DNA of 5,581 nt. Origin: Bacteroidales bacterium. Its GTDB lineage: Bacteria; Bacteroidota; Bacteroidia; Bacteroidales; P3. Positions 1-5,581 of the stretch are shown piece after piece. Each line of letters opens with the position of its first letter. Positions within the stretch are counted from its first letter, which is position 1. The notes beneath the pieces are model-generated. The model ran no database searches and had not been told where the DNA came from. It worked only from the letters and a program-made list of their open reading frames with translations. Location: assembly GCA_031271725.1 (NCBI GenBank), contig JAISVE010000180.1, forward strand, positions 1 through 5,581. The letters run 5' to 3'. The position numbers and the translations under genes are program-made.

Positions 1-37
1 TTTGCGCGCCTTAATCTTTGAAGCTTTAGAAGTTTCC
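1..37 (-). repeat. Palindromic element, third copy, truncated by window edge
   Basis: The reverse complement of bases 1-37 matches the left arm of the element at 3869-3905 with 30 of 37 identities (my count), including the blocks TTCTAAA, TTCAAAGAT and AAGGCGC. Because the element is nearly palindromic, orientation was judged from the AAGGCGC block, which occurs only beside the left arm. The rest of the copy should lie left of the window. It ends 42 bases before the sodB start codon, so it may also form part of the sodB leader. Confidence 0.75.
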
Positions 38-46
38 ATGGTGTGA
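1..46 (+). CDS. 3' end of an upstream gene, C-terminus encoded by a repeat copy
   Basis: A + strand frame starting at base 2 is open from the window edge to a TGA at 44-46 and reads LRALIFEALEVSMV. Only 14 codons are visible, so no function can be given. The support is indirect. Bases 1-37 are a reversed copy of the palindromic element found twice in the TIGR02757 gene. The reverse strand of that element, in the same codon phase, reads SCALIFEFLEIF, which aligns with this frame at ALIFE-x-LE. The upstream gene may therefore have taken up the element near its 3' end and now uses it as its C-terminus. It may instead be only an open stretch in a non-coding repeat. Confidence 0.35.
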   Translation, partial: LRALIFEALEVSMV

Positions 47-3858: not shown

Positions 3859-3866
3859 TATAAGTA

Positions 3867-4826
3867 ATGAAAATTTCTAAAAATTCAAAGATCAAGGCGC
3901 ACGAACGAGAGATAAGGGAGCGTACTGAAGTACGTGACCGAAGAACGAGTGAAGTGCAACGCAGAGATTTGAAGAATTTAGAAATTTTCCTTGATGAGAA
4001 TGTGCATAAATATAACACACCTGCATTTATAGAGAACGACCCGGTGCAATTTCCACGCCGTTATACAAAAAAGCAGGACATTGAAATTGTTGCTTTTCTT
4101 GTGGCGCATATATCTTGGGGTAAGCGTGCCATGATACTAAGGGATGCCGAAAGAATGCTGTCTATAATGGGGGATAGTCCCTATAATTATGTTATGGATG
4201 GCAAATACGAAAAACTCGGGAATAAGAATGTTCATCGCACTTTTTTTGAACACGACATGAAATATTTTCTCGGCGGTTTTGCAAAAATCCTAAAAGAGCA
4301 TAACAGCATAGAGGATTTTCTGAACTCCGCAACCGTAAGTGAAAGTTTTAAAAATCCAAAGGTCAAGGCGCACGAACGAGGAATGAGGGAGCGTACTGAA
4401 GTACGTGACCGAATGATGAGTGAAGTGCAACGCAGAGATTTGGAGAATTTAGAACTTTCCCCCTGGGAGATTGCACGCTTATTCCTTAACGAAATGATTA
4501 CAGCCAATAACGGCGCTGCAAACAAATATTGCTTGCCTACAAATCCCGAAAATTCTGCTCTTAAACGAATAAATATGGCATTGCGCTGGTTAGTAAGAAA
4601 TGACGGCATTGTAGATATGGGAATTTGGAATGTTTTAAAACCTGCACAGTTGTATATTCCGTTAGATGTTCATGTCGCAAATGTTTCGAGGGAACTCGGT
4701 TTGTTAAAACGCAGCAGTAATGATCGGAAAGCGGTAGAAGAACTTACAGGAGTGTTGCGGGAGTTTTGCCCTGATGACCCTGTAAAATATGACTTCGCCC
4801 TCTTTGGCGCAGGCATTAGTGCTTAG
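3867..4826 (+). CDS. TIGR02757/DUF2400 family protein carrying two in-frame palindromic-element insertions
   Basis: A Bacteroidota protein family of unknown function, normally around 250 residues; this one has 319. The family core is clear: FLDENVHKYNTPAFIENDPVQFPRRYTKKQDIEIVAF is interrupted by nothing, followed by ISWGKRAMI, HRTFFEHDMKYFL, ALKRINMALRWLVR, DMGIWNVLKPAQLYIPLDVHV and, at the C-terminus, DPVKYDFALFGAG. The extra length is two copies of one peptide, at residues 2-41 and 159-198, each encoded by a palindromic repeat and both in the same frame. The shared core is RERTEVRDR, then SEVQRRDL, rich in Arg and Glu and probably helical. One copy precedes the conserved domain; the other sits in a linker between SIEDFLNSA and WEIARLFLNEM. 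Conserved blocks on both sides stay in frame, so the protein is probably still made. LDVHVANVSRELGLL around Asp267 resembles the VDTH-xx-RV motif of HhH-GPD DNA glycosylases (inference). The start ATG abuts the first repeat. A TTG at 3969 is a possible alternative start that would leave copy 1 untranslated. Confidence 0.9.
   Translation: MKISKNSKIKAHEREIRERTEVRDRRTSEVQRRDLKNLEIFLDENVHKYNTPAFIENDPVQFPRRYTKKQDIEIVAFLVAHISWGKRAMILRDAERMLSIMGDSPYNYVMDGKYEKLGNKNVHRTFFEHDMKYFLGGFAKILKEHNSIEDFLNSATVSESFKNPKVKAHERGMRERTEVRDRMMSEVQRRDLENLELSPWEIARLFLNEMITANNGAANKYCLPTNPENSALKRINMALRWLVRNDGIVDMGIWNVLKPAQLYIPLDVHVANVSRELGLLKRSSNDRKAVEELTGVLREFCPDDPVKYDFALFGAGISA
3869..3989 (+). repeat. Palindromic element, copy 1 (N-terminal coding insertion)
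   Basis: An imperfect palindrome of 121 bp. The terminal arms 3869-3881 (GAAAATTTCTAAA) and 3977-3989 pair perfectly over 13 bases, and the pairing continues inward with TTCAAA (3884-3889) against TTTGAA (3968-3973). A further short GCAC/GTGC match lies inside. The centre is CGTACTGAAGTACG (3921-3934), a small hairpin with a TGAA loop. It begins at the third base of the TIGR02757 start codon and contributes codons 2-41. No target-site duplication is evident. Confidence 0.9.
4340..4460 (+). repeat. Palindromic element, copy 2 (internal coding insertion)
   Basis: Aligns with copy 1 without gaps at a constant offset of 471 bases, a multiple of three. There are 14 differences in the 120 bases 4341-4460 against 3870-3989 (about 88% identity by my count). 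The central hairpin CGTACTGAAGTACG (4392-4405) and its flanks are unchanged. The arms have diverged but still pair: G4341-C4459, G4345-C4455 and C4356-G4443 replace the A-T, T-A and T-A pairs of copy 1. It encodes residues 159-198 of the TIGR02757 protein. Confidence 0.9.
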
Positions 4827-4903: not shown

Positions 4904-5581
4904 TTAAGCACCACTGAGAATTCCGCTAATACTATTGTTAACGGTAACTTTTGTTGAGGAAGCACCTGAAAGCATAATGTCCAAGTCATCAGTTTCAAAG
5001 TCCAAGGTGTTAAAATCGGAACTTCCACCGCCGTCAAATGAGGTTTCGGTGGCATAGCCGCTTGCCTGAAATGTTGAGGCACCGGAGCAAACAACTTTGC
5101 AGTAGTTAAGGTTAGCGTTATCTAATATTATTTTTGAAGCCCCCGCAATATCAGCGTCAATTCTGTTGCCTCTGAATGTAAAATCTTCGATGCGGGACGC
5201 ACCGCTTAGAGTTATTTCAAGGTTCTCTCCCGTGCATATCAAGCCCTCTATTTCTGACGCTCCGGATAATGAAATGTCTTTGCATAAGGCAAAATTTCCG
5301 TAAGTTTCTATATCAGCGGCTCCGCTTGCTGCAATCTTTTCAAGAGAGGTGGCACTTATTTTTGCACGAAAAACTCTATGCCAAGTTCTTCCCCTTAATG
5401 GATTAACTTTAAGATATAAATATCCGTTGGAACGTAATTCTGCCGAAACACGATTTTCTGCCGCTAAGGAGTATTCGAGTAAAGCACTATTGCTTGTGCT
5501 GTCTTGGGTGATAACCACATCCCAAGGACCTTCGAGAATAATTCCTTTTATTTGTTGCTCTCCAATTGAAAGTTGTTGTTG
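4904..5581 (-). CDS. DUF2807 (GIN-domain) surface protein, 5' part beyond window, premature stop
   Basis: The frame is open from the right edge of the window to a TAA at 4906-4904, giving 225 visible codons. A GTG at 5518 could act as a start, but 21 codons upstream of it are also open and match the family (IKGIILEGPWDVVITQ, the usual start of the domain), so the true N-terminus lies outside the window. The visible part is a DUF2807 domain (putative auto-transporter adhesin head, GIN). It shows repeated beta-helix-like rungs of about 20 residues marked by SGA: ASGAADIE, LSGASEIE, LSGASRIED, AGASKIIL, CSGASTFQ, LSGASSTKV and ILSGA. Such proteins are usually exported or outer-surface in Bacteroidota; their function is unproven. 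The stop falls right after the last SGA, where the family normally has Ser. The gene converges on the TIGR02757 gene. Confidence 0.85.
   Translation of the reverse strand, partial: QQQLSIGEQQIKGIILEGPWDVVITQDSTSNSALLEYSLAAENRVSAELRSNGYLYLKVNPLRGRTWHRVFRAKISATSLEKIAASGAADIETYGNFALCKDISLSGASEIEGLICTGENLEITLSGASRIEDFTFRGNRIDADIAGASKIILDNANLNYCKVVCSGASTFQASGYATETSFDGGGSSDFNTLDFETDDLDIMLSGASSTKVTVNNSISGILSGA

Follow-up and report, generated by a model that had tools for sequence, protein, structure and literature searches.

The DUF2400 gene of a Bacteroidales bacterium contains two copies of one DNA hairpin. The repeat is genuine and palindromic, bears marks of mobile DNA and has become part of the coding sequence. 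The resulting inserts probably derive from a small ERIC-type mobile element that is non-autonomous and would have been moved in trans and repeatedly fixed in frame. The nearest known kind is ERIC (IRU/RU-1); the host, the outer arms, and the repeated in-frame placement inside conserved enzymes are new here.

Results

Two hairpins inside a DUF2400 gene

The window, meaning the whole stretch of 5,581 nucleotides analysed here, encodes on its plus strand (3867..4826) a TIGR02757/DUF2400 protein of 319 residues with two inserts of about 40 residues, which scores 202 bits against TIGR02757 (cut-off 139) and 246 bits against PF09674 of Pfam. A 127-nt stretch occurs twice in this gene in direct orientation, with 87% identity and starts 471 nt apart: copy 1 at the N-terminal end (3864..3990, plus strand; covariance-model match at 3869-3990) and copy 2 in the interior (4335..4461, plus strand; match at 4340-4461). 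Both copies are read in the same phase of the frame. Each folds on the plus strand into a single long imperfect hairpin (-39.5 and -41.1 kcal/mol), with z-scores of -6.58 for copy 1 and -6.50 for copy 2, equalled by none of 200 shuffles; the minus-strand values are -4.74 and -2.94. The outer arms pair 3869..3881 with 3977..3989 in the first hairpin and 4341..4352 with 4448..4459 in the second, all on the plus strand, and the conserved cores lie at 3918..3941 (GAGCGTAC...AGTACGTGACCGA) and 4389..4412 of the same strand. The direct repeat, the hairpins and the shared phase bear out the first-pass annotation, which had reported the same palindrome twice in frame, 471 bases apart, in this TIGR02757 gene. 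It had overlooked a third copy on the minus strand at 1..39 (inverted repeat I1, 39 nt, 82%), of which the window edge leaves only the left arm; its reverse complement reads METSKASKIKARK from an ATG and would provide the first codons of a divergent gene.

The element as a whole measures about 122-127 bp. Its core is fixed (CAAGGCG ... GGGAGCGTAC-loop-GTACGTGACCGA ... GCAACGCAG), and its outer arms, TGRAARTTTCTAAA-like in the window copies, vary. Rfam at gathering thresholds matched nothing in the window, plasmid and phage records searched with copy 1 gave no match, and two core patterns had no exact match in viral contigs. As had been remarked before, no transposase is visible: a Pfam scan of seven window ORFs detected none. 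The same scan placed among the housekeeping genes an FGE-sulfatase-domain protein at 699-1631 and, on the minus strand at 4904-5581, a DUF2807 protein truncated at the end of the window.

A search with the whole DUF2400 protein retrieved 4970 homologues at E <= 1e-20, of which 120, including the window's own, were listed. The 119 others among the matches listed are 233-291 residues long, in keeping with the earlier view of two additions of about 40 residues to a family of about 250, and five words of the element sought in them were present in none. Their sites are thus empty, as the proposed check of orthologues had anticipated. The nearest of the listed proteins, where named, belong to Bacteroidales and their kin. 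The closest among them, P0004 (78% identical, 250 residues), starts without insert 1 and has SATVRENLEITPWE at site 2, where the window protein has SATVSES-insert-ENLELSPWE; the extra residues in SATVRENLEITPWE, which resemble the right end of the element, may be the footprint of a lost copy, an old target or a coincidence. We found no point supporting a native repeated domain of DUF2400 and rule it out, since the repeat is lacking in 119/119 other homologues among the matches listed and occurs in five other gene families.

When the window protein is modelled with AlphaFold (16-row alignment, pLDDT 79.3), insert 1 extends the N-terminal helix, and insert 2 lies between helices 148-160 and 199-213 as a stretch of low confidence (about 50). 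The model is consistent with the earlier suggestion that the N-terminus and an inter-helix linker are tolerant places. We presume that the inserts are translated into protein, and the host enzymes would then tolerate them.

In-frame copies in other housekeeping proteins

We searched 5.8 billion proteins, scoring on residues 2-44, and obtained 9 candidates, three of them at E <= 1: the window's own protein, P0002 and P0003. The latter two are MurE in their insert-bearing part and share one common site; P0003 joins a MurE N-terminus to a cysteine-synthase-like half and may be an assembly chimera. With P0003 residues 83-125 as the query, 8 of 16 candidates had E <= 10, adding DapF with two copies (P0123), two pieces of GlgB with one copy each (P0124, whose final residues are the first residues of P0127), an MsbA-like ABC transporter (P0125) and a MurF-alanine racemase fusion (P0126). 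Both searches were limited to proteins 0.55-1.75 times the query length. Counting MurE once, the element occupies 9 distinct sites in 6 gene families (DUF2400 twice, MurE, DapF twice, GlgB twice, the ABC transporter and MurF-Alr). By source name, P0002, P0124, P0125 and P0127 are from Bacteroidales. In P0126 and P0127 the insert is longer in its left part, where the element itself may have received a second insertion. Protein databases contain open frames alone, so failed insertions are invisible there.

The element thus inserts in frame into unrelated protein genes, which is a trait of Rickettsia palindromic elements (RPE), palindromes of about 100-150 bp lying in frame in unrelated genes (PMC10969869). 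It works like RPE, and the parallel drawn in the first-pass annotation holds for behaviour; the host phylum differs. Distant orthologues with the peptides, or a lack of other copies, had been named as fatal to the insertion reading. Neither was encountered in what was searched, and further copies, which the annotation had proposed to look for, are present in other genes and genomes.

To judge from the sequences, it is the hairpin, not the peptide, that persists. The window copies differ at 16 of 124 bases, distributed 5/7/4 across codon positions, and 13 codons have changed, none synonymously. Among 37 base pairs compared between the copies, 31 are the same, 3 have changed on both sides and still pair, 2 have changed on one side yet pair, and 1 is broken. 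In P0002, the left third of the insert (LKIQRSRRT) corresponds to the +1 frame of both window copies and the remainder to frame 0, indicating that the DNA was kept while the frame shifted. P0003, P0123, P0124 and P0125 have this arrangement with small changes, so that the left third is read in another frame in most of the other proteins. This frame switch between proteins is a direct sign that the DNA or RNA structure persists, not the peptide. A more distant copy lies within a 656-codon frame of a Porphyromonadaceae genome (L091, 1156-3123, minus strand) and is read in a frame other than that of the window copies (EGSVLQYVTE); the frame had no Pfam match and is, by its motifs, presumably methyltransferase-like.

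The insert might also be transcribed and then skipped or removed by bypass or splicing, giving a protein without it. The strong hairpin on the mRNA strand would suit such a process, and bypass of palindromic elements has been reported for a yeast mitochondrion (PMC6649704), but the frame is kept open even though its left part varies among the proteins, and we regard this reading as highly improbable; closed-frame proteins would be absent from the databases in any case.

Relatives in other genomes

A pattern scan of the genome_contigs collection for GAGCGTACNNNAGTACGTGANCGA recovered 74 stretches. We aligned 29 copies, comprising the two of the window and 27 others, one per locus, picked from 45 extracted outside the window; two of them (L029 and L063) come from a contig set titled Ruminococcus flavefaciens. 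The Bacteroidales flanks share a CAAGGCG-like stretch before the core and a GCAACG-like stretch after it, and their outer arms are variable. In a hand-drawn structure of 33 pairs, 87.9% of the cells in the 29 copies are paired, against 31-42% in slid controls, a comparison biased in favour of the structure by its being drawn from the same 29 sequences. The covariation was 0.532 versus 0.170 in shuffled alignments, and 24 pairs had changed on both sides versus 20.4 in shuffles, a number reached by 1 of 500.

The 29 copies served to build a covariance model, R1, with no ERIC sequence in its training. In 16 genomes reached through the core pattern, hence preselected for it, R1 found from 1 to at least 105 matches per genome at E <= 1e-3, with 150 candidates scored in 15 of the 16. 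The top genome (G003, at least 105) has 2.7 Mb and is followed, again as lower bounds, by G002 (97), G004 (88), G006 (47), G008 (44), G014 (39), G005 (37) and G010 (34). An even sample of the phylum gave a match in 7 of 198 genomes at E <= 1e-6, the centre included and 17 candidates scored in each, and 7 of 12 genomes near in DUF2400 carried one. No R1 match was present in G305, the genome nearest to P0004 (61%) among 393 sampled. Within the genus of the Porphyromonas macacae genome G010, 21 of 26 genomes matched at E <= 1e-5, although matches in Porphyromonas are not fully independent of R1, whose training included two Porphyromonas-group copies (L038 and L062).

Most relatives lie outside long frames, counted here from stop to stop and not as gene calls. 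For 37 of 53 copies outside the window (7 edge-near copies apart), no frame of at least 130 codons passes both ends of the element, and for 39 of 46 copies in a second, overlapping set (L086 and 10 short loci left out) none of at least 150 codons does. Six spanning frames scanned with Pfam had no family above the cut-off. We rejected a frame-spanning element in L086, where the element (1281-1404) lies just outside the frame. Several copies start 1-7 nt from the end of a frame.

At six loci, the hairpin lies 0-26 nt from rRNA or tRNA genes, adjoining a 16S, 23S rRNA or tRNA gene (L042, 3162-3285; L069, 1754-1878; L035, 171-293, minus strand; L047, 170-292; L020, 7108-7232; L061, 2880-3002, minus strand). 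These loci belong to Sporosarcina, Coriobacteriia (two), Marinobacter, Microbulbifer and a proteobacterium, and four of the six have tandem hairpin pairs. Near-tRNA copies also occur in L009 and in the Bacteroides-titled L025. Rfam found only rRNA and tRNA genes in the loci of 20 relatives, none overlapping an element. A role in rRNA processing or a preference for spacers is possible. Another locus, L045 (6636-7315), has four head-to-tail units 185 bp apart, three with truncated hairpins and the last with a full one.

Relation to ERIC

We compared the element with real ERIC copies from E. coli and Klebsiella records. R1 matched ERIC over its full length, with 54.9 and 49.6 bits in Klebsiella and 37.6 bits in E. 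coli, and under stricter filters one E. coli record of 4.8 Mb contained 8 matches to the model at E <= 1e-3. Seven of these 8 have 0-4 mismatches to the ERIC2 primer (the two primer strings co-occur in 199 papers), whereas 38 control stretches have 8-11. With 7 mismatches, L121 is the eighth; this E. coli hairpin has a GAGCGTAC/GTACGTGACC tip, not the ERIC tip, and is matched by both models. In the reverse direction, model R2, built from 9 ERIC copies only, matched window copy 1 with 35.5 bits (E 6.4e-6) and copy 2 weakly (22.5 bits, E 0.011). Of 34 other sources, 27 matched R2 at E <= 0.01; L010, L183, L186, L168 and L062 matched only between 0.02 and 0.5, and L135 and L137 had no match. Four of the five Porphyromonas-group loci given to R2 (L183, L186, L168 and L062) are among the weak ones. 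When 31 copies from several phyla, ERIC among them, were aligned jointly, 90.2% of the cells were paired versus 29-44% when slid, and the covariation was 0.768 versus 0.198; these values lean to the structure of R1, to which the alignment was fitted.

The element shares with ERIC a length of about 127 bp, a single long imperfect hairpin, a dispersed distribution, the two-way match in sequence plus structure (R2 being weak on copy 2) and the same order of conserved motifs, GCAGGAAGGCG.., GGAGCTTAC-loop-GTAAGTGAC. Like ERIC, it is sometimes in frame in genes: PMC2759123 and PMC2229807 note this, and the former describes in-frame ERIC (RU-1) copies in enterobacteria and a 42-residue ERIC frame on the reverse complement of the consensus. 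The differences concern the outer arms, the tip, which is GCTTAC/GTAAGTGAC in ERIC and GCGTAC/GTACGTGAC here, and the coding strand, which is the plus strand as drawn here and the reverse complement of the consensus in ERIC (PMC2759123). They also concern placement, inside conserved enzyme domains here and mostly at gene ends for the ERIC copies considered (same source), and the host phylum, since ERIC is assigned to Enterobacteriaceae and Vibrionaceae in PMC10969869, whereas the closest DUF2400 proteins with a name are from Bacteroidales and their kin, and Bacteroidales genomes carry copies. Table 1 of PMC2229807 gives TA termini and target duplication for ERIC; the properties of RPE and ERIC are tabulated there, and both are reviewed in PMC10969869.

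Alternatively, the element could be a palindromic coding element like those of Rickettsia but of independent origin, and two long hairpins whose tips are similar would have converged to give the likeness to ERIC. Rickettsia elements, too, lie in frame in many genes (PMC10969869), the ERIC2 primer core mismatches the window copies at 8 and 9 of its 22 positions, much as it does the 38 control stretches (8-11), and R2 is weak on copy 2 and several relatives. Convergence would, however, have to produce full-length matches in both directions between models from separate training sets, copies in several phyla matched by both models, and, in our reading of the alignments, shared motifs outside the tip and the tandem G-A steps. 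We therefore judge it unlikely.

A hairpin repeat resembling ERIC inside several housekeeping proteins implies that the enterobacterial repeat seems to have wider relatives, which sometimes become part of proteins. Among the literature matches listed, with subscription papers mostly outside the search, no ERIC-like repeat was described outside gamma-proteobacteria, Bacteroidota included. The first-pass annotation, which knew of no counterpart in Bacteroidota, had not named the likeness to ERIC and to the ERIC-like repeats in Bacteroidales and other phyla.

Movement of the Porphyromonas-group relatives

We fetched 40 copies from four genomes of the P. macacae genus. Porphyromonas-group copies sit in MITEs of 174-188 bp that run from GAGACTGTTGCA(A)AAGTC to TGCAACRGTCTC. 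We compared 43 distinct flank pairs, all from copies with both ends; a few of the pairs may go back to a single old insertion shared by two genomes. The target duplication is 5 bp long in 33 of the 43 pairs, and in the others it is 6 bp (2 pairs), 4 bp (1), 2 bp (2) or absent (5). The genome G625 carries an IS with an IS5-family transposase (NF033581, in the L206 frame) and ends like those of the MITEs. Three IS copies (L210, L213 and L216; 94-97% identical) have the left end GAGACTGTTGCA and the right end GAGACTGTTGAAAAAGTC, with 5-bp duplications in L210 (TATTG) and L213 (AATAG) and none in L216. Comparison with these three led us to drop the reading of a 1342-bp stretch of L206 as an IS with a built-in hairpin; an ERIC-like MITE (1293-1479, duplication TACTT) is nested there in an IS5-family IS copy. 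The MITE ends, the 5-bp duplications and the IS5-family IS with like ends indicate that the hairpin travels in this group as the body of an IS5-type MITE.

Known counterparts in P. gingivalis are IS5-type MITEs (MITE464/PgRS, BrickBuilt); PMC4596501 gives the GAGACTGTTGCA end of the Porphyromonas-group copies for ISPg4 (IS5 family) and MITEPgRS. BrickBuilt and PgRS are characterised in that paper through tandem repeats of 23 and 41 nt and not through this hairpin. The ends and 5-bp duplication of an IS5-type MITE are thus found in the Porphyromonas-group relatives, whereas the window copies have outer arms without the GAGAC end. Mobilisation in trans, which had been proposed at the outset, is supported by ends and target duplications in the P. 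macacae genus; for the window's lineage, we infer it.

Copying at the RNA level or primed by the hairpin, with no transposase, is a further way in which the element might have multiplied in the window's lineage. Several relatives adjoin rRNA or tRNA genes or the ends of ORFs, and the covariation of the arms is something template switching could also give, but the transposon ends and 5-bp duplications of the Porphyromonas-group relatives argue against it, and we hold this route to be quite improbable.

Discussion

For the small ERIC-type element moved in trans, which we favour, we propose that a trans-acting transposase would act on the outer arms and paste copies around the genome, as an IS5-family transposase, with 5-bp duplications, might do for the Porphyromonas-group relatives. 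One plus-strand frame of the window copies is stop-free, so that a gene hit in the right phase at a tolerant site would stay open and gain about 40 residues. Housekeeping genes would have kept such in-phase insertions repeatedly, with the hairpin, not the peptide, persisting.

A broader reading, which we put forward tentatively and rate as somewhat short of likely, is that an old family of hairpins, of which ERIC is the enterobacterial branch, combines a conserved core with exchangeable outer arms borrowed from IS elements (IS5 family in the Porphyromonas group), extends over at least six phyla and has become, in one Bacteroidales lineage, a recurrent coding insert. By record titles, the matched contigs belong to Bacteroidota, Pseudomonadota, Bacillota, Actinomycetota, Bdellovibrionota and Desulfobacterota. 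To our knowledge, the mechanism by which ERIC repeats move is still open. If true, the old-family reading would suggest how ERIC-type repeats move. Relatives that look like ordinary IS5-type MITEs, complete with clean target duplications, provide a mobiliser that can be put to the test. So wide a family points to reuse of one hairpin in different phyla, and the coding copies would be a further case, outside Rickettsia, of palindromic mobile DNA joining essential enzymes.
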